Part shown: in pieces, positions 1,049 through 34,148 of the stretch
How positions within the stretch are numbered: position 1 is the stretch's first letter
How the letters are laid out: every line of letters starts with the position of its first letter
IMG/VR virus record: IMGVR_UViG_3300042359_000060
Coordinates: 1 to 35,106 of that record
Strand: one strand, 5' to 3'
DNA: 35,106 nt
Origin: a virus
Translations under genes and position numbers: made by a program
The notes under the pieces: generated by a model
The model's database searches: none
What the model was told of the DNA's origin: nothing
The model's input: only the letters and a program-made list of their open reading frames with translations

Positions 1049-1539
1049 CGCCCACACCTTGATCTGGCACACAGATCAGATACTTCATTGATACCCCAAC
1101 CAACAGCACCAATAAACATCACAATAATAACAATGGCAATTGCCCACTGCATTTGTTCAGCTTCAGCCTCTTTGCGCTTTTTTTCTTCAGCGTGTAAGGC
1201 CGCCATCTCTTTGGCATCATCCCTGTCCATTTCAGCTTGACGGGCTTTGGTTGCATTCCACACGTCTATGCGACCAGCTTGCATAAACAACATTTTTAAC
1301 TGCTCTTCAAACCGCTTGGCTTCATCTAAAGCCATCTCAATCTGTAACGCCGCGCCAAGGTTAGACTTACCACCTGTACGCTTGGCCTGAAGCATGGCCT
1401 TGGTAGCGGTGCTCTTTGCATCAAAAAGCTTGGCTATTGACGGCGTTAGACCTGCCAGATCACTAGCGACTTTACTAGCTTTCTTAACGACACTTATTGC
1501 AGTTTGCAATCCTTCTAGCGCCGTGATCGGATCAATCAT
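1045..1539 (-). CDS. coiled-coil protein with C-terminal TM segment
   Basis: I place the start at the ATG at 1539 (MIDPITALEGLQ), which overlaps the upstream stop as ATGA, rather than 30 bases upstream. That gives 164 aa. The N-terminal half is Ala/Lys-rich and helical. Residues about 85-140 are highly charged (KARQAEMDRDDAKEM, EEKKRKEAEAEQ) and predict a coiled coil. A TM helix follows (about 143-162, WAIAIVIIVMFIGAVGWGI), with a short Cys/Arg tail. The order coiled coil then TM at the C-terminus, inside a lysis cassette, suggests a membrane-anchored lysis or tail-end protein. No family is named with confidence. Confidence 0.7.
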   Translation of the reverse strand: MIDPITALEGLQTAISVVKKASKVASDLAGLTPSIAKLFDAKSTATKAMLQAKRTGGKSNLGAALQIEMALDEAKRFEEQLKMLFMQAGRIDVWNATKARQAEMDRDDAKEMAALHAEEKKRKEAEAEQMQWAIAIVIIVMFIGAVGWGINEVSDLCARSRCGR

Positions 1540-1691
1540 TTCCGTACAACCTTTTCCCACTGTAGGCAAACAACTTTGCGGTTATAAACATCACCCGTCC
1601 ACGCCCACCGCACACAGCGGTATTCAGTCTTCCTATCTTGGCTGGCTGCTCCCGGTAGAAACACCAAAAAAAGCATCAATAGCCAACGCAT
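1536..1691 (-). CDS. small secreted protein with signal peptide
   Basis: This is a 51-aa product. Its N-terminus (MRWLLMLFLVFLPGAAS, then QD) looks like a Sec signal peptide with a plausible cut after AAS. The mature part is only about 33 residues, carries two Cys (RCVRWAWTGDVYNRK, VVCLQW) that could form a disulfide, and is basic at the C-terminus. There is no lipobox Cys after the signal, so it is not an obvious Rz1 lipoprotein. The ATG directly follows the upstream TAA, and its TGA overlaps the next ATG. The role is unknown; a periplasmic lysis accessory is inferred from position. Confidence 0.6.
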   Translation of the reverse strand: MRWLLMLFLVFLPGAASQDRKTEYRCVRWAWTGDVYNRKVVCLQWEKVVRK

Positions 1692-1787
1692 TTACCACGC
1701 CCAACTCCATGCAATTATGTACGTGCCATAGATGACGAAGGCCACAAGAAGGGCCGCCGCAATGAATGCTTCAGCCCAGTCCCACAT
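1692..1787 (-). CDS. 31-aa single-TM protein
   Basis: The frame encodes a short protein that is almost entirely a membrane helix (AFIAAALLVAFVIYGTYIIAW) flanked by Trp-rich ends. It starts two bases after the upstream stop and ends immediately before the next ATG (TAAATG), so it fills its slot exactly. No strong Shine-Dalgarno is visible, suggesting coupling to upstream translation. Function is unknown. It belongs to the group of tiny membrane genes before the holin. Confidence 0.5.
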   Translation of the reverse strand: MWDWAEAFIAAALLVAFVIYGTYIIAWSWAW

Positions 1788-1789
1788 GG

Positions 1790-2026
1790 TCAATTAACCG
1801 TTACGTCAGTCACGGCCTCTTCAGGCTTGGCTTCTAACGCTGTCTTTAACATTGTGAAGAAGGCATCTCTGCCCACTTGGAGTTGGTCAAGCTGGAACTT
1901 GGTAGAACCAATCTTGCGCTCAATGTCTGCAACGTGATTTAACAACATCTGCTGCTGCTCCGTCATGTCTTCAACTTTGAACTCAACGCCGTCTATAGTT
2001 ACGATTTGGGATTGTTGGTTTGCCAT
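1790..2026 (-). CDS. small coiled-coil protein, possibly virion-associated
   Basis: This is a 78-aa protein. A short N-terminal strand (IVTIDGVEFKVEDM) is followed by a long helix with heptad-like spacing (LLNHVADIERKIGSTKFQLDQLQ) and VGRDAFFTMLKTAL. It resembles small conserved proteins of marine and freshwater phages (DUF6447-like, from memory, not verified). An AAAGGAAA ribosome binding site precedes the ATG. It sits between the tail appendage genes and the lysis cassette. Function unknown. Confidence 0.7.
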   Translation of the reverse strand: MANQQSQIVTIDGVEFKVEDMTEQQQMLLNHVADIERKIGSTKFQLDQLQVGRDAFFTMLKTALEAKPEEAVTDVTVN

Positions 2027-2073
2027 ATCGTGTTTCCTTTAATGTGCCACCAAGATCGGGTGGTGGCTTCCCG

Positions 2074-2391
2074 TTACGCTACCCAAGGCAAAGGCTGTGA
2101 TGCAGGGCTGACAGGCGGTGTAATCATGCTGTCGATTTGTCCCTGCACACACTGCTGTGCGCTTGTAATGGCTGATTCAGGAATCCAACCAATGACGGTG
2201 GCTTCTGTCAACTGATCGTATGGGATGAATGCACCCACTTGGTCAGCAGAGTTAAACTGTGTATTGCCGCCGATAGAGGCAGTGTAAGTGCCGTCTACTC
2301 CAGTGACCTGCCAAAGGGCGTTAACGACATACCCCGGATCGGGAGTGTCGAGCGTGTACATGGAAGTGATGGTTGTTGTAAAAGTGGTCAT
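2074..2391 (-). CDS. conserved phage protein next to the tail fibre
   Basis: This is a 105-aa protein. It has a beta-rich first part (TTTITSMYTLDTPDPGYVV, then WQVTGVDGTYTASI), a central FIPYDQLTEATVIGWI stretch, and a Pro-rich end (PPVSPASQPLPWVA). I recognise this pattern from many uncultured tailed phages, where it lies beside tail fibre genes, but no function is established to my knowledge. It lies just downstream of the large fibre gene with a 15-base gap. A fibre-associated or assembly role is inference. Confidence 0.7.
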   Translation of the reverse strand: MTTFTTTITSMYTLDTPDPGYVVNALWQVTGVDGTYTASIGGNTQFNSADQVGAFIPYDQLTEATVIGWIPESAITSAQQCVQGQIDSMITPPVSPASQPLPWVA

Positions 2392-2406
2392 GATTTACCT
2401 TTTAGT

Positions 2407-5400
2407 TTAAAGATTAGCGGCATCCAAACGTGCCTTGAGGGATTCAATGATTGCTTGTTGTTCTTGCAGGGCTTTGGTCAAAATAACAGTCATACGGTCA
2501 TATTGGAAACCCTCTACCTCGCCCTTTAAGTTGTAGCTGATTAATTCTTTTATTCCTTGTTGGTCTACTTCATCAGCAATAAAACCAAAATGGTCTTTTG
2601 TTTTGTCATCATCTTTGCAAAGAGAGTTGTAAACAACAGGTCTAAATTTGTTAATGTCTATTGATGCAATATCCCGAATATTTGTTTTGTATTTAAGTGC
2701 GGATGTTGATGTTCTTAATGTACCAGCGGCATCACAATTAACATTTGCCGCATTACCAGTTGTATTTGATGTAACACCTTCCGCTCTCGTTAGACCAGTT
2801 GAGTTGATATAAAACCAAGCATTTCCATCACCATCGCTAAGTACAATGTTGGAACTAGATGTTCTTATGTCTAGAGTGTTTCCTGTGACAGGTAGTGTTT
2901 GGTTTCCAGAATAACCACCAAGGATGGTGTTTTTTGTACCTGTGGTAACAGAGTAACCTGCGGCTGAATTAGTACCCGCACCAATAAATGTGTTTGCGCT
3001 ACCAGTTGTGTTTAAGCCAGCCTGATAGCCAACAAAAGTACTTTGAATGCCCGTTGTGTTGGAATATCCTGCTTGATAGCCAATTGCAGTTATTTGTCCA
3101 GTCGCATTGCTATACGCCGCACGATAACCTACAGCGGTGTTACCAGAGGCTGTAGTGCTGGCAATAAGAGATTGTGAACCTAAAGCAGTATTATTACTGC
3201 CTGTAGTGTTAGCATTAAGTGCGGCGTTACCCAAAGCGGCATTATCAGAACCAGTTGTGTTCGCGTTTAGAGATAGACGACCAATAGCAGTAGATGAGTT
3301 GCCTGTAGTGTTTGCATACAAAGCACCTAGGCCAACAGCTACTAGTTCTACGCCCGTTGTATTTGAGCGCCCCGCCTCAAAGCCTAGAGCAGTATTATTA
3401 GATGCTGTGGTGTTAGAAAAAAGTGCATCTCTACCGACAGCAGTGTTTTGACTACCTGTGGTGTTAAACAAAAGCGAATTTGTCCCCAATGCCACGTTAC
3501 TAGTGCCAGTTGTATTTGTGTAAGCGGCTTGAAAACCTACGGCTGTATTGTTAGATGCTGTGGTGTTTTTTGCCAGTGCTGTGCCACCAATTGCAGTATT
3601 TTGAGTACCTGTGGTGTTGTTTTCCATTGCATAGTCGCCAACAGCAGTGTTGTATCCACCCGTTGTAGTTAACTTTAATGCCGCCATTCCTATTGCTACG
3701 TTTGCATTTGCAGTGGTAGCTGTAGAAAGAGCTATTGAACCAAGGGCTACGTTTTGAACTCCCGTGGTATTAGCATAACCCGCTTGATAACCTACCGCAG
3801 TATTGTTAGATGCTGTGGTGTTAGATTTAAGCGATTCTGCGCCAAAAGCAGTATTGTATGAACCAGTTGTATTGACATTTAAAGACGCAACTCCCAATGC
3901 AGAATTAGCTGTACCTGTTGAGTTTGTATATAAACTTCCAGAGCCAACTGCCGTGTTGTTTGAACCTGTATTAGAAAATAACGCACTCCAACCAATAGAG
4001 GTATTTTCTGCTCCAGTCACGTTTGTATAGCTTGACTGATAGCCTACAGCAGTGTTGTAGGATGCTGTGGTATTTTTACCAAGTGCGGAGTTACCAATTG
4101 CTACGTTTGCTGATCCTGTGGTGTTGGAAGACAAAGCAGATTCAGACGCAGTTCCACTAATATCCGCACCGATTGCTACGTTATCACGACCGCTTGTATT
4201 AGCGTACAGAGCGGATGCGCCAACAGCGGTATTACCACTGCTAGTATTAAATCTTAATGCCGATGCTCCAATTGCAGTAGAGTTAGCACCAGAAGCGGCT
4301 GTAAGCGTTAAAGCACCAACAGCAGTAATACCTGTAGTTGTTACGCCAAACGCAGATTGATAACCTACAGCAGTGTTATAGGATGCTGTAGTGTTGGAAA
4401 AAAGGGCTTGCCTACCTATGCCTACATTAAATTGACCTGTAGTGTTTGTAAACACTGCGGCACTACCTACTGCTATGTTTCCTTCTCCCGTAGTATTATT
4501 TTTTAAAGCGGCAAGACCTATCGCCGTTGTAAAGTTACCCGTGGTGTTGGCATAACCCGCCTGCACGCCTATGCAAGTAATTTCCACACCCGTTGTATTT
4601 GAGTAAGCCGCCTGATAACCTACAGCAGTGTTGTCGGAGGCTGTGGTGTTTAGATACAAAGCCTGCTGACCAATTGCAGTATTGTTTGCACCGCTTGAAC
4701 CAGAGCCATAAGCATAATAACCAACAGCGGTATTACTGTTTCCAGTAATAGAGGAATTACCAGCAAGACTACCTACATAAGTGCCATAACTTCCAGTTGC
4801 ACCACTTCCAGCCGCACGACCAATAGCAACATTATCTGCGCCAGTAGCGTTAGTTGCAAAAGCACTAGCACCCACCGCAGTATTGGTAGACACAGCACCC
4901 GCACCTTTACCAACAGTCAGACCGCTGATAGAGGCATCATTAGCCATCGTTACAGTAGTGCCGTTGAATGTGAAGTTAGCAGAGTCAACTAAATTACCTG
5001 ATGCACCCGCATAGAGAACACGACCAGATGTCAAAGAAGAATCAGTCAAGTCATTGACAGTCAGCGTAGTGCCGTTGAATGTCATGTTAGAAGAACCAGC
5101 CAATACACCAGAACTGTTGAACTGAACCTGAGTGTTAGAGCCACCAGCCGCGCCAGCCGTAGCCGTTCCGACAACCTTCACATAGTCTGTGCCGTTGAAG
5201 TAAACAAACGCTGTCTCGCCTACAGCCACAGAAACACCAGTCTGGCCTGCTGCTTTAAACGTAACAATGCCGCCCGTAGCGGCGTTCACCACTGTGTATG
5301 TCTTACTGTAGCTTGGAGCCGTTACTACCTTGGCTGTGGTTAGCGTACCTGTAACCCGAACGATGGCAAACTGGGCCGTAACTGTACCCGCGCCTGTGAG

Positions 5401-5604
5401 GGTGGATGTGACATTAGAAGCTGACGCATCGCCAGTGGTGTTAGCCAGAGTTACTGCACCGTCATTGGTCAGGGTCAAGGTTCCTGCAATGGCAATATTG
5501 ATGTACTGCGTTAGACCATTGTTAACGGTATCGCCCCATGTGCCGGAGAGTTCACCCTGTACTGGAAGAGCTAAACCTAGTTGTCCTGTTGCGCCTGTAG
5601 TCAT
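2407..5604 (-). CDS. tail fibre/spike with 17-aa repeats and C-terminal peptidase S74 chaperone
   Basis: This 1065-aa protein has four parts. The N-terminal ~180 residues have a phage-fibre look (GELSGTWGDTVNNGL and beta-rich Thr/Ala/Gly sequence). A linker follows, then roughly 38-40 tandem units of about 17 residues with consensus (T/V)A(V/I)GxxALxxNTTGxxN (about residues 240-900), resembling YadA/Hep_Hag-type trimeric beta repeats. The C-terminal ~98 residues match the intramolecular chaperone domain of endosialidase-type fibres (SALKYKTNI, then DHFGFIADEV). Family knowledge: this domain trimerises the fibre and then cuts itself off at a Ser-Lys dyad, here probably near Ser968. It should be the receptor-binding appendage. 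Confidence 0.88.
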   Translation of the reverse strand: MTTGATGQLGLALPVQGELSGTWGDTVNNGLTQYINIAIAGTLTLTNDGAVTLANTTGDASASNVTSTLTGAGTVTAQFAIVRVTGTLTTAKVVTAPSYSKTYTVVNAATGGIVTFKAAGQTGVSVAVGETAFVYFNGTDYVKVVGTATAGAAGGSNTQVQFNSSGVLAGSSNMTFNGTTLTVNDLTDSSLTSGRVLYAGASGNLVDSANFTFNGTTVTMANDASISGLTVGKGAGAVSTNTAVGASAFATNATGADNVAIGRAAGSGATGSYGTYVGSLAGNSSITGNSNTAVGYYAYGSGSSGANNTAIGQQALYLNTTASDNTAVGYQAAYSNTTGVEITCIGVQAGYANTTGNFTTAIGLAALKNNTTGEGNIAVGSAAVFTNTTGQFNVGIGRQALFSNTTASYNTAVGYQSAFGVTTTGITAVGALTLTAASGANSTAIGASALRFNTSSGNTAVGASALYANTSGRDNVAIGADISGTASESALSSNTTGSANVAIGNSALGKNTTASYNTAVGYQSSYTNVTGAENTSIGWSALFSNTGSNNTAVGSGSLYTNSTGTANSALGVASLNVNTTGSYNTAFGAESLKSNTTASNNTAVGYQAGYANTTGVQNVALGSIALSTATTANANVAIGMAALKLTTTGGYNTAVGDYAMENNTTGTQNTAIGGTALAKNTTASNNTAVGFQAAYTNTTGTSNVALGTNSLLFNTTGSQNTAVGRDALFSNTTASNNTALGFEAGRSNTTGVELVAVGLGALYANTTGNSSTAIGRLSLNANTTGSDNAALGNAALNANTTGSNNTALGSQSLIASTTASGNTAVGYRAAYSNATGQITAIGYQAGYSNTTGIQSTFVGYQAGLNTTGSANTFIGAGTNSAAGYSVTTGTKNTILGGYSGNQTLPVTGNTLDIRTSSSNIVLSDGDGNAWFYINSTGLTRAEGVTSNTTGNAANVNCDAAGTLRTSTSALKYKTNIRDIASIDINKFRPVVYNSLCKDDDKTKDHFGFIADEVDQQGIKELISYNLKGEVEGFQYDRMTVILTKALQEQQAIIESLKARLDAANL
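2910..4890 (-). repeat. degenerate 51-bp tandem repeat array inside the fibre gene
   Basis: The reading frame cycles every 17 codons, with AVG/AIG and NTTG as the fixed points. About 38-40 units are present with few insertions. A distinctive variant junction, TTAS followed by D/Y/N, N, then TAVG, recurs at roughly every fifth unit (and once after three). The repeats are coding and diverged, not an array of identical repeats. Confidence 0.75.
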
Positions 5605-5613
5605 TTAAAACTC

Positions 5614-6333
5614 CTAATTCGTTGAAACATCAGCCCATGCCGCTGTCTGTGTATTACCAATAGTCTGCCAGCTTGCAGTCTGCGTGTTACCGATATTCTG
5701 CCAGTTTGCGGTCTGCGTGTCATCTATAACACTCCACCCAAACGCCTGTGAAAATGCGTTAACCGCTCCAGTTGCCGATACGCCCGTTAAAGCTATTGAC
5801 TTGTTAATTCCTACCGACCCCACTGCGCCTGTTGCAGCTACACCTGTCAAAGCCGGAGAATGCAAAACACCCAGTGTTCCAACCGCACCCGCCGATACCA
5901 CACCTGTCAAAGCTACGGAGAACGCTGGAACCACCGTCCCAACAAACCCGCTGGCAAAAGTCCCATTCTCAACAATAATGTACGATGGTACGACCGTTCC
6001 TACATCACCCGTTGCCGATACACCCGTCAGAGCTATCGCTGTACTACTTACTACCGTTCCGACCTCGCCGGTTGCTTGAACACCTGTCAGGGCTATTGCT
6101 TTTTCAATACCTACTGACCCTACGGCTCCCGTTGCCGCTACGCCTGTGATAGCTGTCTCAGTGCTTGCTACAACCGTCCCAACCAACCCAGATGCCGTTA
6201 CACCTGAGAGAGCTACCTCAACACTTACCTTTACTAACCCAACTGCGCCCGTTGCTTCAACGCCCGTGATGGCAAGTTCACCGCCGCCCCAGACACTACT
6301 ACCCCATGTACCATCGCCCCATCCAAGAGACAT
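5614..6333 (-). CDS. repeat-rich virion appendage protein
   Basis: This 239-aa protein starts with a Trp/Gly-rich segment (MSLGWGDGTWGSSVWGGGE). It continues as about nine tandem 20-residue units with core (I/A)(A/L)TGVxATGxVGTV, the last ending before residue 200. It closes with three copies of a Trp-containing unit (NTQTAxWxxIG), which are 12 residues apart. Such beta-strand repeats suggest an elongated fibre or tail-surface protein, possibly an adhesin-like accessory to the larger fibre. Almost no charged residues occur in the array. No named family is recognised. It lies 9 bases upstream of the fibre gene in transcription order. Confidence 0.7.
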   Translation of the reverse strand: MSLGWGDGTWGSSVWGGGELAITGVEATGAVGLVKVSVEVALSGVTASGLVGTVVASTETAITGVAATGAVGSVGIEKAIALTGVQATGEVGTVVSSTAIALTGVSATGDVGTVVPSYIIVENGTFASGFVGTVVPAFSVALTGVVSAGAVGTLGVLHSPALTGVAATGAVGSVGINKSIALTGVSATGAVNAFSQAFGWSVIDDTQTANWQNIGNTQTASWQTIGNTQTAAWADVSTN

Positions 6334-6337
6334 GACA

Positions 6338-6838
6338 TCAAGTTGTAGACAAACGCAATAACGCAGTTGTCGTTGAACTTGTCGGCATCGTCAACGTAAA
6401 CACCCCAGACGTAATGGTCTGGCTACTGAATGTGTGAACGCTAACCGCTGTGTCGCCCTGTGTGGAGTTATAAATCAACACCGCATCAAAAGCAGCAAAG
6501 GTTACAGGTGTTGCAGTGGCCCCGTAGACAATACTTGCCGAAGGAGTCCAATACGCCACCCCTGCGGTAGCTGAAGCGTTTGTAGCTACAGGCACATTGG
6601 CATTGGTAATTGCCACACCACCAGGCGAATAGTTTGCTGACGACACTTCATTGCTCGCACTGTAAGCAGTGGTTGATGCGTTAACAGTGGCACCCACCAA
6701 ATACAAAGCCGCCTTAAACGTATCTTTTGTGGGTGCGGTTAAGCTACCCCTGCTGGTCAACGTAATAGTGCCAAATTGGTGACCGCCATTCAATAACTGC
6801 CCCATGAAAGAGGTGCACATACTTTGAGTATTCGCCAT
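6338..6838 (-). CDS. virion structural protein, paralogue of the gene at 7030-7458
   Basis: This is a 166-aa beta-rich protein. Its plan (SFMGQLLNGGHQFG, then FKAALYLVGATVNASTTAYS, then SPGGVAIT, then FDAVLIYNSTQGD, ending TLTMPTSSTTTALLRLS) follows that of the 142-aa protein two genes upstream (SFKAQLYQGIHDLT, IKIALYTADANLNEDTTAYS, VAGGAQLT, ARCALIYNDTVAG, TITMPANTATAALIRSS). The two are clearly paralogous. I know this family only as predicted phage structural or tail proteins. A fibre-proximal or neck role is inferred from position. Confidence 0.7.
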   Translation of the reverse strand: MANTQSMCTSFMGQLLNGGHQFGTITLTSRGSLTAPTKDTFKAALYLVGATVNASTTAYSASNEVSSANYSPGGVAITNANVPVATNASATAGVAYWTPSASIVYGATATPVTFAAFDAVLIYNSTQGDTAVSVHTFSSQTITSGVFTLTMPTSSTTTALLRLSTT

Positions 6839-10111: not shown

Positions 10112-10383
10112 TCTCGGTAACCCCCGCCTGCCGCCTTGTACTTCTTGGCAACAAGCTGAGCTTTACGCGCTGACCACTGACCTGCACCAGTACCCTGCGT
10201 TGCGGCGGCTTTTACTTGCGACACAATCCTCTTGCGAAGACTGGGTTTTGTGTAATTGCCAGCGGCGTTGACCTTCCCACCCTCTTTGTACTGGGTAAAG
10301 TCAGTGTCGTCCCGCCGGGCTTTCTTGACGCCCTTGGGCATTTTAGAGGGGGAAATATCCCCCATACCGCGACTGGCCATCAT
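10108..10383 (-). CDS. small basic protein
   Basis: This is a 91-aa Lys/Arg-rich protein with an N-terminal linker (ISPSKMPKGVKKARRDD) and a conserved-looking C-terminal segment (KPSLRKRIVSQVKAA, GQWSARKAQLVAKKYKAAGG). The latter resembles short repeats seen in other virus-encoded basic proteins. Four-base overlap with the next gene. A DNA- or virion-binding role is inferred from charge and position. Confidence 0.65.
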   Translation of the reverse strand: MMASRGMGDISPSKMPKGVKKARRDDTDFTQYKEGGKVNAAGNYTKPSLRKRIVSQVKAAATQGTGAGQWSARKAQLVAKKYKAAGGGYRD

Positions 10384-21240: not shown

Positions 21241-21261
21241 TCGGGGAGACATTCTCCCCGA
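21241..21261. repeat. GGGGAGA hairpin repeat, copy 1
   Basis: TCGGGGAGA and TCTCCCCGA form a perfect 9-bp stem around the loop CAT. It lies in the leader of the first early gene, 34 bases before its ATG. It is the first of eight copies of the same palindrome found between 21.2 and 29.1 kb. Confidence 0.85.
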
Positions 21262-22558: not shown

Positions 22559-22922
22559 TGCGAGATTATTGAGGCAAAAAACCAGTCACAGCCAAATGTC
22601 CGACACTACAACCCGTGAACTAAGATGCGTGTAACCCCGCAACCCGCATCCACGCTAGCGTTCCGCAAAAACTGTCCTATCTATCTATCTATTTAATATA
22701 TATTTATATATAGAGATGTATGTATCAGGGGGTGAGCATTTTCTTTTGCTTAAAGACTTTCTTTTTTAAGCTGGCGTTAGCAATCCCCAAACAAGATAGA
22801 TACATCGGACACTTTTCGTGCTAAGCTAGCATTGGTGCGGGTTTAGAACCTACACGCTTCTTAGTCACAGCCCTGTAGTGTTGGACATTTGTCCGACCCT
22901 CACTTTTGGAGTCAATAATCTC
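22559..22922. other. structured non-coding region, candidate origin or control region
   Basis: No gene is seen in these 364 bases. The region contains palindrome ACGCTAGCGT (22652-22661), four CTAT units (22677-22692) running into an AT-rich core (to about 22725), and a hairpin GCTTAAA/TTTAAGC (22748-22771). AGATAGATA (22794-22802) is inverted relative to the CTAT units. A 10-mer AGTCACAGCC occurs twice (22584, 22863). TGTCC-type half-sites lie at 22597, 22673, 22805 (inverted), 22881 (inverted) and 22890. Clustered repeats plus an AT-rich core are typical of phage replication origins or multi-site operators. Confidence 0.5.
22881..22896. promoter_or_regulatory. inverted repeat TTGGACA-TT-TGTCCGA
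   Basis: Two 7-base half-sites (one mismatched pair) face each other across TT, 27 bases before the ATG at 22923. Half-sites of the form TGTCCRA also occur in the 20985 operator, at 21835, twice elsewhere in this intergenic region, and at 28774 (inverted). This looks like a binding site for a dimeric regulator or an initiator protein. Confidence 0.5.
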
Positions 22923-23627
22923 ATGTACGAAACATACCTCAAACTCTCAGCCAACGAGCTACACAACCGCTTAACCGAGCGCAAGATGCACCCATCTGAG
23001 GTGGAACGCATCAAAGCAGAGGTGGCTGACCTCAAAGAAACCCTGCGTGTATCCAAGATCACACGCACCCAACGCAAGGCAGAGTGGGACAAAGTGCTGC
23101 AACCCCTGCGCTACGAGATCAACAACGCCCGTGTTGGCATGAGATACGGCGGGGAGAAAGTCTCCCCAGAACGGGTGCTAGCTTTCAGCGAGTACATCAG
23201 GGTCATGGAGAAGCTCTTAGCCATGCTCGATGCACCATTCAAAGCGCTTGACCACACACCCATACAGATAGCCCGTGACAAGGGCTTGCCCAACGATGGC
23301 GAGCATTGGACTGACTGGATACCCGCTAGGGTCAAAGACAAGGTGTCCCTGTTGTTCGATGTTGTACCCATCACACCAAGGGGCAAGCGCAAGACACCCT
23401 TCCAACGCACGATGCTTCCTGACCAATTTAATAAAGCAAAAACCAGATTATTGACCAAGACCAAGCGAGAGCTTGAGACGCTGATGCGTCAAGCGGATAT
23501 CAACCCGACAGTAGCACGCTTAGACAAGATAACCAAAATGAAGCGAGCCATTAAGATTATTGACACGCTAGACAAGAACGAAGCTGTGCCAGCCACATGG
23601 ACAAAACTAGCCCTAGGGGGGAACTGA
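22923..23627 (+). CDS. 234-aa helical protein, unknown
   Basis: The start is taken at ATG 22923 (MYETYLKLSANELHNRLTER); the GTG at 22878 would translate through the inverted repeat. The protein is highly helical and charged: VERIKAEVADLKETLRVSK, LAFSEYIRVMEKLLAML, then basic C-terminal helices (KAKTRLLTKTKRELETLMRQ, LDKITKMKRAIKIIDTL). Residues around GGEKVSPERV are read through hairpin copy 4. The family is not recognised. Its position next to a candidate origin and its basic C-terminus would suit a DNA-binding role, which is inference only. Confidence 0.7.
   Translation: MYETYLKLSANELHNRLTERKMHPSEVERIKAEVADLKETLRVSKITRTQRKAEWDKVLQPLRYEINNARVGMRYGGEKVSPERVLAFSEYIRVMEKLLAMLDAPFKALDHTPIQIARDKGLPNDGEHWTDWIPARVKDKVSLLFDVVPITPRGKRKTPFQRTMLPDQFNKAKTRLLTKTKRELETLMRQADINPTVARLDKITKMKRAIKIIDTLDKNEAVPATWTKLALGGN
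23151..23167. repeat. GGGGAGA hairpin repeat, copy 4 (coding, inverted loop)
   Basis: GGGGAGA/TCTCCCC with loop AAG, the exact reverse complement of the common CTT form. It is read in frame as Gly-Glu-Lys-Val-Ser-Pro in the middle of the 234-aa gene. Confidence 0.85.
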
Positions 23628-24756: not shown

Positions 24757-24780
24757 GGGGAGAATTTCTCCCCATTTTTT
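24757..24780 (+). terminator. GGGGAGA hairpin repeat, copy 6, with T-run
   Basis: GGGGAGA/TCTCCCC (loop ATT) is followed by ATTTTTT, so this copy has full intrinsic-terminator form. It lies 27 bases before the amidoligase start, just before the AAGGAG site. Another bulged hairpin (GCGCTGTTA/TAACAAGCGC) lies just upstream at about 24718-24737. Confidence 0.8.
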
Positions 24781-24799: not shown

Positions 24800-26896
24800 A
24801 TGTTTCAAATAACTAGATTCGTGATGGAAGATTTCGTTGACTCACTCGATCAGATCATTTATATCGTGTCACTCAACAAGCGGTACATGGTGTACAACGC
24901 CTCTCGTAGGCGTCTTGTCTACTCAGAGTTGCAGCACATGGATGCAGGTCAAGCGCCACTCGATCTGATCACGACCAGCAACCTGTCTGTGTGGACTCGT
25001 ACCTCACGCTATCGTGTCAACCCCGATGAGAATCTTGCACCCCGTGCTATGACCTATCGAGAGGCTGTTGACGAGAGTCGTGATCGCTACGATATACATC
25101 AGATGATGCGCCGTCTGTTGCTGCCCGCTAGCATCGACAATAGTAGGCTTGATCGCACTGAGCGCAACCTGTTGATCCATAGGGTAGATCGTGTCATTGA
25201 GGGGTATGCAAGAAAGCGTGACCCCAATGCGGACTCACCGCCTAACCCATGCGCTCAGTTCAAGGGCTCGTGGTACTACGGAAGCAGCGTTCTTCCATTC
25301 GCCCTTGCTCGCAAGACGTATCGTGACTTCGGTCACTTGGTTGCTCGTGCCAAGGCAGGTGATGAGTCCATCACGAACGATGATCTTCGCTCTACGTTCT
25401 TCAACATAGCCAATCGTTACAGCGATGCTAGTCTTCCCGTTTCGAGTGCGTTCCGTGTTATCTCGGATATGGGCGACATGGACATTGTGCATTGCGACTG
25501 CGGTCACTACGAGGACAGCAACAACACACACGATGTGCGTAACGATACGTGGTGTGACTCGTGCTTCGATGATGACGCTGTGTACTGTGAGGACAATGGC
25601 GAGTACTGGCCCCGTGACGATGCGTACTACTCTGAGTCTCGTGATGCCTACTACTCGTATGATCGTGACAGCGAGGACGACGATGATGACGATGACGATG
25701 AGGAAGATCGTAACCAGCCGATCATGTCGTACTGTACCAACGTGCTTCATGTCCTTGACTACCCCTCTGGCATCACGTCGTCTCACTTCGGTGAGTTCAC
25801 GATGGGCATCGAGCTTGAGATGACGTCCGGCGATCACGACAGCAACGATGCCGCTGAGTCTGTGCGTAGCCGTCTTGGTTCCGCATACTGCATCATCAAG
25901 AGTGACGGCTCGCTTCCACACAACGGCTTCGAGGTCGTGACTTCACCGCAAGGTCTAGCCAAGCACATCGAGGTGTTCAAAGCGTGGGAGATTGACCCCG
26001 CCTATCGTGCATGGAACACAGGCAAGTGCGGTATGCACGTACACATTGACTCTCGTGCCTTCACGCAGTTGACTGTTGGCAAGTTCTTGATGTTCATCAA
26101 CAGCAGTGGCAACGTCGACTTCATTCGTAAGATTGCAGGTCGTCACCCATCTGTCGATGACCAAGCTCGTAGCTACTGCGCCGCTGAGCATCAGTCCATA
26201 CTTACCAACCCCAAGACTGCGGTCAAGGGTAAGTCAGGTGAGCGCTATCGCATGGTCAATATGTGCAACCTCGGCAGTCGTGAGGCTAGGCGTCTTGGTC
26301 TTAGCATGGACAACAGCTACAACGGCAAGTACAACACTGTCGAGTTGCGTATCTTCCGTGCTTCGCTCAAGAAGGAGCGTCTGCTTGCGCAGATCGAGTT
26401 CACTCATGCGGCTGTCATGTTCTGCCGTGTCGCATCGTGGCGTGATCTCAATGGCACATCGTTCGTCAAGTGGCTCAAGACTGTAGCGGGTCAGTACCCT
26501 GCGCTCGTCAAGTGGTACGGCGTGCGCAATGTACATACATCTGTGCCTACTGTTACTGCGCCAGCGCAGGACACTTGTGCTGATGCTGTGCCTCTTGCCC
26601 CTTCCGCAGAGTCTCGCTATGCCCACGGGCATGACCATCGCTATATGTTCCAGATACCTTATGAGGATGGCTATGGTATGCGTAGCTACGCTAACAACTA
26701 CGGGCTTCACTTCACCTTCTTCAGGGTGCTTGGCTTGCAGTTGGCTGTGTTCCCGTACGGGGGCAACGATGAGCACATCAGCGATATCGATGTGATCTAT
26801 GTGCGTGACGGCGATGTGTGGCGTCTGCAAGAGGACAGCTTCAACGAACTGATTGTGGGTCACAACCCTGTGTCAGCTAACTCAGTTACCGAGTAA
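24800..26896 (+). CDS. amidoligase-family protein (COOH-NH2 ligase) with N-terminal zinc-binding region
   Basis: The start is the ATG at 24800 (MFQITRFVMEDFVDSL) after CAAGGAGAAACAT, giving 698 aa; an upstream in-frame start would run through the hairpin. The C-terminal half shows the amidoligase signature: GIELEM (336-341), KSDGSLPHNGFEVVTSPQG (from 367), GMHVHID (411-417) and NTVELRIFRAS (512-522). Family knowledge: these glutamine synthetase-fold enzymes use ATP to join a carboxyl to an amine. The N-terminal half has CDCGH (Cys232, Cys234), CDSC (252-255) and Cys263, a probable zinc site, then an Asp/Glu run at about 292-305. The next gene is a class II glutamine amidotransferase, a plausible ammonia source. 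The substrate is unknown. Confidence 0.8.
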   Translation: MFQITRFVMEDFVDSLDQIIYIVSLNKRYMVYNASRRRLVYSELQHMDAGQAPLDLITTSNLSVWTRTSRYRVNPDENLAPRAMTYREAVDESRDRYDIHQMMRRLLLPASIDNSRLDRTERNLLIHRVDRVIEGYARKRDPNADSPPNPCAQFKGSWYYGSSVLPFALARKTYRDFGHLVARAKAGDESITNDDLRSTFFNIANRYSDASLPVSSAFRVISDMGDMDIVHCDCGHYEDSNNTHDVRNDTWCDSCFDDDAVYCEDNGEYWPRDDAYYSESRDAYYSYDRDSEDDDDDDDDEEDRNQPIMSYCTNVLHVLDYPSGITSSHFGEFTMGIELEMTSGDHDSNDAAESVRSRLGSAYCIIKSDGSLPHNGFEVVTSPQGLAKHIEVFKAWEIDPAYRAWNTGKCGMHVHIDSRAFTQLTVGKFLMFINSSGNVDFIRKIAGRHPSVDDQARSYCAAEHQSILTNPKTAVKGKSGERYRMVNMCNLGSREARRLGLSMDNSYNGKYNTVELRIFRASLKKERLLAQIEFTHAAVMFCRVASWRDLNGTSFVKWLKTVAGQYPALVKWYGVRNVHTSVPTVTAPAQDTCADAVPLAPSAESRYAHGHDHRYMFQIPYEDGYGMRSYANNYGLHFTFFRVLGLQLAVFPYGGNDEHISDIDVIYVRDGDVWRLQEDSFNELIVGHNPVSANSVTE

Positions 26897-26911
26897 TCAT
26901 CAACAACCAAA

Positions 26912-26936
26912 CGGGGAGTAACTCTCCCCGATCTTT
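26912..26936 (+). repeat. GGGGAG hairpin repeat, copy 7
   Basis: CGGGGAG/CTCCCCG with a five-base loop (TAACT) and a short T-rich tail (ATCTTTT). It lies 15 bases after the amidoligase stop and 26 bases before the amidotransferase start, ahead of its AAGG site. This is the most diverged copy: the innermost A-T pair of the arms is lost. Confidence 0.8.
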
Positions 26937-26955
26937 TACATCAAGGAAATTTATT

Positions 26956-28062
26956 ATGTGTCTTATTATTACTGGTCAGTCTTCCAAAGTTCGTTCCACA
27001 TTGCTCGATACACACGGGCTACTGAGCGATATCTTTACCTCCAATCCTGACGGCATCGGCTTTATGTACGGCACTGCCAAGGGACTGAAGGTTACCAAGA
27101 CTCTGCCTAAGAATCTCGGCGATGCTACTGCATTCATTCAGCGCCTGCCCAATGACGATCGTGAGATTGCCATTCACTTCCGCTGGACTACGCACGGCAA
27201 GACCGATATGCTCAACTGCCATCCGTACGATGTGATTCCGGGCTTCATCGCCATGATGCACAACGGCGTGTTGCACACAGGCAATGCTGCTGACAAGAAC
27301 AAGTCAGACACATGGCACTTCATCAATGACTACTTGCACACTGCTGTGTCGTCTGCACCTGACCTTGTGTATGACACGGGCTTCGTGTCTATGATGGAGG
27401 AGTTCATTGGCAACAATCGCTTCGTGTTCATGAATGGCGAGGGTCGTATGCAACACGTCAACTTCGATCAGGGTATCGAGCATGATGATCTGTGGTTCAG
27501 CAATACCTATGCGTGGTCACCATCACGTCTTATACCCAGCTACAAAAGTGCGACTCTCAAGTCATACAACTACAAAAGCTCGTACGGCAGCTACATGGAC
27601 GACGAGTACGACGAGATGTACGACTACAACGCAAGCTTCGGCATCTATCCCCGAAGTGTCAGCGCACACAGCGCCAACTACGACGAGACAGCGCATGACT
27701 TTCCCGATGCTGAAGATGGTTTCATTCGCCCTGAGCTTGATGATCTTGCTACTGCTCTGACCGAGTGTGACATTCAGACTATGGAGATATGGCTTGAGGA
27801 GATGCCTGCGTACACGATCACTACGCTACTGCATGCTTTCGAGGCATCAGCACTTGACTACTCGCCTCGTGCTGATCTGTGTGTACCTGATCAGCTTATC
27901 TATGATATGTTGATCGAGGGTGATGCGTCTGGTCTCATCAGCTATGCGACCAAGTCTTACTCTGCGTCAAGCAGTATTGCCGAGGTCATCTGCTACTACA
28001 CGCAGTGGGATGTACGCAAGCCCGTGTCGTTCAAGCCAACATTGCCTGCACTGTTGACCTGA
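26956..28062 (+). CDS. class II glutamine amidotransferase-like protein
   Basis: This is a 368-aa protein. The N-terminus MCLIITG places Cys2 as the Ntn nucleophile once Met is removed. The rest of the class II pattern follows: PDGIGFMYG (31-39), HFRWTTHGKTDMLNCHPYDV (74-93; Arg76, His89), MMHNGVL (Asn103-Gly104 oxyanion hole) and KSDTWHF (Asp118). These match the catalytic residues of GlmS/PurF-type glutaminase domains. The C-terminal ~190 residues are Tyr/Asp/Ser-rich and then helical, with no synthase domain recognised. It should release ammonia from glutamine, presumably for the adjacent amidoligase. AAGGAAAT precedes the ATG. Confidence 0.85.
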   Translation: MCLIITGQSSKVRSTLLDTHGLLSDIFTSNPDGIGFMYGTAKGLKVTKTLPKNLGDATAFIQRLPNDDREIAIHFRWTTHGKTDMLNCHPYDVIPGFIAMMHNGVLHTGNAADKNKSDTWHFINDYLHTAVSSAPDLVYDTGFVSMMEEFIGNNRFVFMNGEGRMQHVNFDQGIEHDDLWFSNTYAWSPSRLIPSYKSATLKSYNYKSSYGSYMDDEYDEMYDYNASFGIYPRSVSAHSANYDETAHDFPDAEDGFIRPELDDLATALTECDIQTMEIWLEEMPAYTITTLLHAFEASALDYSPRADLCVPDQLIYDMLIEGDASGLISYATKSYSASSSIAEVICYYTQWDVRKPVSFKPTLPALLT

Positions 28063-28068
28063 TGTGTA

Positions 28069-28095
28069 GCGGGGGCTAACCACCCCCGCATTTTT
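28069..28095 (+). terminator. terminator-like hairpin after the amidotransferase gene
   Basis: GCGGGGG/CCCCCGC (28069-28075 and 28083-28089) around a seven-base loop is followed by ATTTTT, and then at once by AAGGAGG of the next gene. It has the same hairpin, T-run, ribosome-site order as copies 6 and 7 but a different stem sequence. Confidence 0.75.
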
Positions 28096-31317: not shown

Positions 31318-31556
31318 CACAAGATGAAATCATTGAGATGCTTGCCAAAGTCTATGGTGTTGCATGGACTAGCAAGGCACAACTTAGAGACTTGACCGCC
31401 TTTGCCAAGCTAGTAGCACAGCATGAGCGTGAGGCGTGTGCAAGGGTGTGTGAGTTGATGTGGCACGAATGGTTGGACTCGCCCGAAGAGAATGAGCCAA
31501 ACAAACCTGATGCAGAAGACTGCTACAGAGCCATCCGAGCAAGGGGACAAGCATGA
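31314..31556 (+). CDS. small phage protein, TTG start
   Basis: The TTG at 31314 follows AAGGAGCAATTTAA and overlaps the upstream TGA (TTGA). The 80-aa product (MTQDEIIEMLAKVYGVAWTS, LTAFAKLVAQHEREACARVC, ending CYRAIRARGQA) belongs to a very common phage family in which AFAKLVAxxEREACAxVC and AIRARGxA are the fixed parts. No function is established. It overlaps the next gene by four bases. Confidence 0.75.
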   Translation: MTQDEIIEMLAKVYGVAWTSKAQLRDLTAFAKLVAQHEREACARVCELMWHEWLDSPEENEPNKPDAEDCYRAIRARGQA

Positions 31557-32194
31557 GTTACATCATTGCATCGTTGCCACCCATCAAATGTTTTGTGCGC
31601 AAGGAATTTCTTTACAACTTTCAAAAGGGTCATGGCGAGTTGGAGCCTGCGGTTTGGGTAAGCCTCAAAGCATTGCGCGGTCAAGTGTTTCGCATTGAGT
31701 CTTTGCTCCCTGCCTATGGTGCGCTGTACGACAAGCTACCTATCCACGCTTATGTGTGGCAAGAGGAGCATGGCAATCTGCCAGTTGATACTTTGCAATT
31801 GTGGGACTGCATGGGCTACCGATTCACCATCCTTGAAAAGATTGGCCTTCGCAACCTTGGTGTAAAGTTTCTTGGCAAAGACAAGGAGTGGCACTTTGGG
31901 CGCTATTTGTTTACGGTGGACTTCTGTGCTGACGGCATGGACTTGGACACGGGTTTTACTGAGCAGGCCGAAGAACATAAGTCTTTTAACTGGATTGCTT
32001 TGGACAACGGTCAGTTTGCTTGCCAGCCCAACAACCGATGCCTTTGGTATGACCAGAGCCTGATCCCTGCTGAGACAAAGTTCCCTGACTTTCAAGCTGC
32101 ACGGTCTTTGTGGACGGTTGACGGCACGCGCAAGTGGTCTGCTGGCGATGATTGGTTTTACGACATAAAGGAGAAGAATGAGCGCACCATATAA
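31553..32194 (+). CDS. conserved phage protein, unknown
   Basis: This is a 213-aa protein with an alpha/beta pattern: IIASLPPIKCFVRKEFLYNF, ELEPAVWVSLKALRGQVFRI, LPIHAYVWQEEHGNLPVDTL, then FGRYLFTVDFCADG. It is recognisable from many phages as a conserved hypothetical near replication genes. No catalytic motif is evident. The last 17 bases overlap the DNA polymerase start, so they are probably coupled. Confidence 0.65.
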   Translation: MSYIIASLPPIKCFVRKEFLYNFQKGHGELEPAVWVSLKALRGQVFRIESLLPAYGALYDKLPIHAYVWQEEHGNLPVDTLQLWDCMGYRFTILEKIGLRNLGVKFLGKDKEWHFGRYLFTVDFCADGMDLDTGFTEQAEEHKSFNWIALDNGQFACQPNNRCLWYDQSLIPAETKFPDFQAARSLWTVDGTRKWSAGDDWFYDIKEKNERTI

Positions 32195-34148
32195 ACAGAT
32201 CATCACGATCGACTTCGAAACCTACTGGGACACCAAGGAAGGTTACACACTCACCAAGATGACAACCGAGGAGTACATACGCCATGATAAATTTAGAGCG
32301 TTCGGAGCTTGCGTCCATGTATACGGAAGCGATGAACCAACTAGATGGGTTAGCGCAGAGGGACTACGTGAGTACTTCAATGGTGTCGATTGGGGACGAA
32401 CCGCAGTGCTTGCACATAACGCACAGTTCGATGTATCCATTATGGAGTGGGTCTACGCTGTACATCCAGCCTTTATCTTCGACACCTTATCAATGGCGCG
32501 AGCTTTACGGGGCGTGGAAGTTGGCAATTCCCTCGCTAAACTTGCAGGCGATTTTGGCCTTCCCCCCAAAGGGGATGCCGTATATTCGACGAATGGACTG
32601 GTGGAGCTTACGGACAAGATCGAAGAAGAGTTGGCCGCTTACTGCGCGCACGATGTATTTCTCTGCGAACAAATCTTCGGGCGACTTATTCGAGATTACC
32701 CGTCCAAGGAACTTCGGCTCATCGACATGACGCTAAAGATGTACACACGCCCTGTGCTGCAGCTTGACCCCAACATGCTGACTGACGCCATACTAGATGA
32801 AAAGGAAAAACGTGAAGCCCTATTACAAAAGCTCGGCGTGGATGAAACTGCACTGGCATCGAACCCGCAGTTTGCTGCACTACTTGAGAAACTCAATGTG
32901 GTTCCGCCAACCAAGGTCAGTAAGACGACGGGGAAGCAAACACTTGCCCTCGCTAAGAACGATGCCCTATTTCAAACGCTACTCAACAGTGAACGTGAAG
33001 ACGTTGCCCTACTTTGTGAAGCGCGTCTTCGGGTTAAATCGACCACTGAGCGAACCCGCGCCCAAAGGTTCCTTGACATCAGCAAACGCGGAGCCTTGCC
33101 TGTCCCACTCTCCTACTACGGGGCGCAGACTGGCCGGTGGACAGCAAGCAAAGGCTCGGCCATCAACATGCAGAACCTCAAGCGAGGCTCATTCCTACGC
33201 AAAGCGATAATGGCTCCCGAAGGGCATCAGCTTGTTGTTGGTGACCTCTCGCAGATCGAGCCGCGAGTCCTTGCGTGGCTTTCTGACTACACAGACATGC
33301 TCGGTATCTTCAGCGCTGGCGGTGACCCTTACGCCGCGTTCGGTGCGCAGATGTTCAACATCCCCGGCTTATCTAAAGAAAGCCACCCTGACTTACGCCA
33401 ATCGGCCAAGAGCGCGTTGCTCGGGTGCGGCTATGGGTTGGGTTGGGCATCCTTTGCGTCTCAACTCACAACAGGATTTCTGGGTGCACCGCCGGTACGC
33501 TACGAAGCGGATTTTGCGCGGCAACTTGGCGTAAGCAAGAAGAAGGCGATCGAGTTCCTGAGTTGGCAAGACACCGAAGCCAAGCTTAGGGATATCCCGC
33601 ACACCTGTAGCCTGTACGAGTTAGCCATGCATGCCGTAGCGTCCAAGCGCATCATTGATATCTACAGAGCTACAGCGTACCCTGTTGTGGGCTTTTGGCA
33701 GATGTGCGAGAGACAGATTGAGTCGGCTTTGTACTATGGCAAAGACTACACATACAAGTGCTTGACGTTTCGCAAGGGTCGTATAGAATTACCCAATGGA
33801 ATGAGCTTGCACTACCCCAATCTGAGACGAGAGAAGGATGAGAAGGGTAGAGACCAGTGGGTTTACGGCGCCGATGCAACCAAGTTGTATGCAGGCAAGG
33901 TAACAAACAATGTCACGCAAGCGCTGGCGCGTATTGTGATGACTGACGGAATGCTACGGGTATCCAAAAGATACTTCATAGCAGGCACAGTGCACGACGA
34001 ATTGATCGCTGTTGTACCTGATGCCGAGGTAGAGGAAGCTAAGACTTGGGTCTTGGCGCAGATGACTATGGAGCCAAGCTATATGCAAGGCATACCATTG
34101 TCCGCTGACGGTGGCGCGCACCGTCGTTATGGGTTAGCAAAAAACTAG
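32178..34148 (+). CDS. polA: DNA polymerase, family A, with 3'-5' exonuclease domain
   Basis: This is a 656-aa protein. The exonuclease motifs are TIDFETYWD (Asp12, Glu14), AHNAQFDVSIME and YCAHDVFL. In the polymerase domain, motif A is GDLSQIEPRVLAW (Asp356), motif B is RQSAKSALLGCGYG (Arg407-Gly420) and motif C is TVHDELIA (Asp607). The position equal to E. coli Phe762 is Leu415. The 5'-3' exonuclease domain is absent, as usual in phages. AAAGGAGAAGA precedes the ATG. It replicates the phage genome; the helicase and primase must lie beyond the right edge. Confidence 0.95.
   Translation: MSAPYKQIITIDFETYWDTKEGYTLTKMTTEEYIRHDKFRAFGACVHVYGSDEPTRWVSAEGLREYFNGVDWGRTAVLAHNAQFDVSIMEWVYAVHPAFIFDTLSMARALRGVEVGNSLAKLAGDFGLPPKGDAVYSTNGLVELTDKIEEELAAYCAHDVFLCEQIFGRLIRDYPSKELRLIDMTLKMYTRPVLQLDPNMLTDAILDEKEKREALLQKLGVDETALASNPQFAALLEKLNVVPPTKVSKTTGKQTLALAKNDALFQTLLNSEREDVALLCEARLRVKSTTERTRAQRFLDISKRGALPVPLSYYGAQTGRWTASKGSAINMQNLKRGSFLRKAIMAPEGHQLVVGDLSQIEPRVLAWLSDYTDMLGIFSAGGDPYAAFGAQMFNIPGLSKESHPDLRQSAKSALLGCGYGLGWASFASQLTTGFLGAPPVRYEADFARQLGVSKKKAIEFLSWQDTEAKLRDIPHTCSLYELAMHAVASKRIIDIYRATAYPVVGFWQMCERQIESALYYGKDYTYKCLTFRKGRIELPNGMSLHYPNLRREKDEKGRDQWVYGADATKLYAGKVTNNVTQALARIVMTDGMLRVSKRYFIAGTVHDELIAVVPDAEVEEAKTWVLAQMTMEPSYMQGIPLSADGGAHRRYGLAKN

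Follow-up and report, generated by a model that had tools for sequence, protein, structure and literature searches.

Genomic Context of the Two-Gene Locus

The window, a 35,106-base virus record (IMGVR_UViG_3300042359_000060) analysed at its full length, derives from a freshwater-type phage. Structural genes (terminase, portal, head, tail) occupy the left half as a leftward arm; the early/replication genes form a rightward arm in the right half, with DNA polymerase A (32178-34148) and a nuclease (from 34456). An amidoligase gene and a class II glutamine amidotransferase (GATase) gene lie in the rightward arm, 5' of the polymerase gene and opposite the structural arm (Table 1), in a gene neighbourhood without a pointer to the cell envelope. 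The window terminase is nearest to those of Pelagibacter phages HTVC027P and HTVC023P, phage 023Pt_psg01 and phage DSL-LC04 (~50-54%). Since none of these phages was among the phage records matching either gene, we regard the pair as an accessory trait of the window lineage. A separate ORF located just before the polymerase (31553-32194, + strand) showed a strong match to phrog_3704 ("ferredoxin", E = 1.8e-74) and no Pfam or NCBIfam match, which makes the ferredoxin label doubtful.

Table 1. Features of the amidoligase-GATase locus and its surroundings in the window.
Feature	Position	Strand	Description	Evidence
Amidoligase	24800..26896	+	698 aa	PF12224 match, phrog_16683, invariant core residues, dN/dS
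Amidoligase domains	residues ~1-225; ~230-290; ~291-306; ~332-575; remainder		lineage-specific N-terminal region; Cys-rich probable zinc-ribbon module; acidic linker; catalytic Amidoligase_2; variable C-terminal tail
GATase	26956..28062	+	class II (Ntn, Cys2) glutamine amidotransferase, 368 aa	Foldseek, GlmS profile match, conserved residues, dN/dS
GATase domains			N-terminal glutaminase domain (~200 residues); lineage-specific C-terminal part (~170 residues)
Palindrome upstream of amidoligase	24757..24773	.	GGGGAGAATTTCTCCCC, directly upstream, T-rich 3' flank	position kept, compensatory half-site changes in relatives
Palindrome between the two genes	26912..26930 (17-bp palindrome from 26913)	.	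CGGGGAGTAACTCTCCCCG
Hairpin after GATase	28069..28089	+	terminator-like, GCGGGGGCTAACCACCCCCGC + ATTTTTAAGG
17-bp palindrome copies	starts at 21243, 21769, 22529, 23151, 23659, 24757, 26913, 29084
ORF, candidate palindrome binder	22878-23627	+	249 aa	sequence follows palindrome class

Annotation of the Amidoligase and the Glutamine Amidotransferase

Both ORFs proposed in the initial annotation are present. The amidoligase starts at an ATG with AAGGAG in front of it; a mechanical ORF caller begins at an upstream GTG (24752), whereas conservation among relatives begins at the ATG. The motifs quoted initially were all found, and the family assignment was borne out by Pfam Amidoligase_2 (PF12224), which matched residues 374-537 (E = 4.7e-7; 30.4 bits against a curated cut-off of 22) and was also matched by 24 of 24 aligned relatives at E < 1. 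Among PHROGs, the protein matched the unnamed phrog_16683 (4.6e-20) as well as phrog_2443 and phrog_7469 (amidoligase). An 11-member alignment reaching down to ~18-25% identity revealed an invariant core comprising GxELE (G336, E338, E340), DGS (369-371), GxE (G376, E378), GxHxH (G411, H413, H415), Y483/N487 and TxExR (T513, E515, R517), so that every glutamine-synthetase-type core motif (GxExE, DGS, GxHxH, ExR) is retained. As an Amidoligase_2 member, the protein is assigned to the glutamine-synthetase-like superfamily, and the initial statement that neither protein carries a recognised synthase domain has to be corrected: the amidoligase is itself that domain. The gene is under purifying selection (dN/dS ~0.24-0.35). 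A Cys-rich module (CDCGH...CxxC) followed by the acidic linker stands N-terminal to the catalytic domain and probably binds zinc.

The second protein has the complete class II glutaminase active site claimed for it (C2, R76, H102-N103-G104 and D118) within a predicted GlmS/EgtC-like fold. The other invariant positions of this protein are M1, G33, H74, T79, G81, H89 and N169, and the active-site residues of GlmS (C2, R76, N103-G104, D118) are kept. A profile built from diverse members aligned with E. coli GlmS at E = 2.4e-6, and the RWxTHG...HNG motifs of the two coincided. Selection on this gene is also purifying and stronger than on the amidoligase (dN/dS ~0.09-0.15). The HMM searches suggested in the initial annotation succeeded for the amidoligase and gave only sub-threshold matches for the GATase, at 13.1 bits for GATase_6 and 10.8 bits for GATase_4 (cut-offs of 27 and 23). 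We read the protein as a divergent class II member; the Pfam cut-off concerns detection and says nothing about catalysis.

Single-protein structure prediction was likewise informative for one partner. The GATase model, of moderate confidence (mean pLDDT 66), had EgtC, GFAT and GlmS as its top Foldseek matches (probability 1.0; E 4e-4 to 1e-3 for EgtC and GlmS). For the amidoligase, the catalytic domain was poorly modelled (mean pLDDT 63), and the prediction offered no more than a hint: at this low confidence it had no significant PDB match, with glutamine synthetase, YbdK and GshA below threshold (E > 0.4), and its match to BFVD viral amidoligase models (E = 1e-8) was in part sequence-driven. 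A PDB sequence search with amidoligase profiles returned nothing meaningful.

Conservation and Joint Movement of the Pair

Adjacency of the two genes is obligate in the window lineage. Among 53 IMG/VR contigs with the amidoligase, the GATase came next in all 46 with room for it, the other seven ending within 81 bases; among 70 contigs with the GATase, the amidoligase preceded it in 60 of 60 with room, the other ten starting within 91 bases. The amidoligase-to-GATase order was constant throughout these close relatives, and MEP401-type phages showed the same pairing, with zero exceptions among loci with room. The strict co-occurrence envisaged by the initial annotation consequently holds for close relatives and the MEP401 lineage and fails as a general rule. 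In Clostridioides phage AR1086-1, the gene after the related amidoligase is one for RNA repair and not a GATase, and a Microcoleus phage amidoligase has no recognisable GATase beside it. Because such more distant amidoligases can do without the partner, the pairing is lineage-specific, and NH3 need not be a substrate of the ligase reaction in every case.

The pair also moves as a unit. Four unrelated backbones (podovirus ctgrD200, MEP401, Acinetobacter phage vB_AciJM_313 and a contig from an Oxalobacteraceae MAG) have only the amidoligase and the GATase in common with the window, which argues that the two genes travel together. The last of these, JAIXQK010000092.1, carries a divergent copy of the pair and was the one locus found in a scan of bacterial genomes. 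It is 63 kb long and encodes a phage SU10-type portal protein; it is probably a phage binned with the MAG, and the binning is a weak host hint. With their sole locus most likely of phage origin, given this portal, bacterial homologues were dropped as a clue to the substrate. A plasmid search gave matches only in Clostridioides difficile records, at 26-28% identity. Two viral scans with distant queries returned either nothing or a single locus, IMGVR_UViG_3300024493_000013 (1370-6647), in which a GATase-like ORF precedes two amidoligase-like ORFs in an alternative arrangement.

A Repeated Palindrome in the Early Arm

Just upstream of both genes lies a copy of the palindrome GGGGAGA-nnn-TCTCCCC, which occurs eight times between 21243 and 29100. 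The window holds nine matches per strand, against a mean of 0.5 in shuffled windows for both strands together; the ninth, at 10349, lacks the inner pairs. At homologous positions, relatives carry other half-sites, with GGGGAGA, GGGGAAC, GGGGAAA, GGGGAC and GGGGACA represented and GGGGTCA in distant genomes. Across 260 sites from 44 loci, a set that is not entirely free of redundancy, half-site agreement was 0.93 within genomes and 0.30 between them, and the concordance of half-site plus length was 0.85 versus 0.17, a value reached by none of 2000 label shuffles. The copies change in concert, the pattern that co-evolution with a trans-acting factor would be expected to leave. The palindromes range from 14 to 17 in total length. 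Some of them lie within ORFs, and the asymmetric centre can be reversed from one homologous site to the next; these two properties speak for a site in double-stranded DNA rather than a hairpin in RNA. In several relatives a short GGGGG..CCCCC hairpin occupies the place of the terminator-like hairpin after the GATase.

The 249-aa ORF listed in Table 1 is the sole neighbouring family that tracks the site class, with an identity of 0.80 within and 0.55 between classes, compared with a class difference of 0.08 or less for the other neighbouring ORF families tested; the match is by clade, not one-to-one. Its product has a basic C-terminal half and no Pfam match, and some family members carry the palindrome inside the gene. 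We consider this protein a candidate binder of the palindrome, and control of the amidoligase and GATase genes by the element is plausible.

Comparison with Known Phage Cassettes

The expectation that phages encode amidoligases, some with glutaminase partners, agrees with published examples. Genes of the PF12224 and PF13522 families are present in OM43 phages MEP401/402 (PMC10580990), and an amidoligase gene together with a GATase gene is found in UFV-P2, tf and LUZ24, the first and last of which have additional ligases (PMC3890496, PMC3517423). A peptidoglycan-modification cassette was proposed to act against superinfection (PMC5498523), and phage pairs have been read in print in the same way as here (PMC10580990, PMC3890496, PMC5498523).

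The pairs of MEP401/MEP402 and ctgrD200 (MW202733) have the same two families, order and adjacency as the window and, like it, no further cassette members that we could find; the MEP401 pair also lies close to where the replication arm begins. They differ in having only ~25-36% identity and other amidoligase N-terminal domains. The podovirus cassette of LUZ24, tf and UFV-P2 consists of a PF14395 COOH-NH2 ligase, a PF12224 amidoligase, a class II GATase, an ATP-grasp/RimK-like protein and GGCT. Like the window, it has an Amidoligase_2 gene in the early arm with a class II GATase gene after it, although the sequences are barely alignable and homologues of PF14395 and PF06094 are missing from the window lineage. 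PF14395 was found in 0 of 14 pair-bearing records and the gamma-glutamyl cyclotransferase PF06094 in 0 of 11, with LUZ24 positive as a control in both cases. The records are listed as linear and may not be complete. An ATP-grasp/RimK-like model had no match in pair-bearing phages, but it missed the annotated LUZ24 gene too. The window GATase shares with the glutaminase domains of GlmS/GFAT and EgtC the Ntn fold, the Cys2 nucleophile, R-x-x-T-H-G, HNG and D118, and differs from these proteins in having no fused synthase domain and a separate C-terminal extension. The pair type is thus already published, and the window holds a reduced two-gene form of it, without the COOH-NH2 ligase and gamma-glutamyl cyclotransferase partners. 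In the literature searched, we found neither an experimental function nor a known substrate for any amidoligase/GATase pair.

Proposed Function and Alternative Readings

We propose that the two proteins probably form a two-subunit glutamine-dependent amide ligase, with a host-envelope carboxylate as the most likely substrate. The initial annotation had suggested an ammonia-fed amide ligase, and the two families, the intact active-site residues, the co-occurrence in close relatives, the joint transfer to unrelated backbones and the purifying selection on both genes point the same way, since the chemistry of Cys2 class II glutaminases and of glutamine-synthetase-type acyl-phosphate ligases is established. 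Removal of Met would expose the N-terminal Cys2 of the GATase, which would hydrolyse glutamine and hand the resulting NH3 to the amidoligase; there, ATP would activate a carboxylate as an acyl-phosphate by glutamine-synthetase-type chemistry, and its reaction with NH3 would yield a primary amide. Complex formation, ammonia channelling and the direction of the reaction are what we infer. Following the published hypothesis, the target would be a host cell-envelope carboxylate, such as Glu or Dap of the peptidoglycan stem peptide, changed early in infection and possibly protecting against superinfection. Taken by itself, this substrate step, drawn by analogy, is a tentative choice that may well prove wrong. 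The options named in the initial annotation, a virion or wall target, a small molecule or a counter-defence role, are likewise candidates only.

An unlikely alternative is that the pair amidates a carboxylate on a host or virion protein instead of a wall precursor, the zinc-ribbon-like and N-terminal domains binding the target protein. In the window lineage a Cys-rich module precedes the catalytic domain, other versions of it are fused to the ctgrD200 and Acinetobacter phage amidoligases, and two wall-modification cassette members are absent, all of which is consistent with such a target; the fused modules could, however, just as well contact nucleic acid or have a structural role, and the Cys-rich one varies strongly between lineages. 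In a more specific form, to which we give a little less credence, the pair would be a minimal self-contained amidation machine, directed to proteins by the fused zinc-ribbon module and serving as a host-takeover or anti-defence modifier, not a wall enzyme. No PADLOC model matched the amidoligase or the GATase, so that homology gave no defence or counter-defence assignment.

The two proteins could also act separately, the amidoligase as a peptide-type ligase coupling carboxylates to amino acids or amines and the GATase as, for example, an amidohydrolase. EgtC, a top fold match of the GATase, is a hydrolase of the same fold and not an ammonia donor, and amidoligases without a GATase exist. Strict adjacency and joint transfer nevertheless favour a shared reaction, and the GATase active site is GlmS-like, so we rate separate roles as rather improbable. 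Most remote is a DNA base hypermodification pathway, with the GATase supplying the amidation step on a modified base: class II GATase-QueC fusions act in 7-deazaguanine phages, the GATase here is class II and replication genes adjoin the pair, but we rejected this reading because homologues of QueC, TGT/DpdA-type enzymes and thymidylate synthase are absent from the window lineage, including two ~60-kb records, the sole thymidylate synthase being found in the unrelated Acinetobacter phage.

Overall, amidoligase/GATase pairs recur in unrelated phages, and the window lineage shows such a pair moving as a unit. In this lineage the pair stands as a clean two-gene unit represented by dozens of natural variants, a reduced cassette whose activity should be easier to reconstitute.
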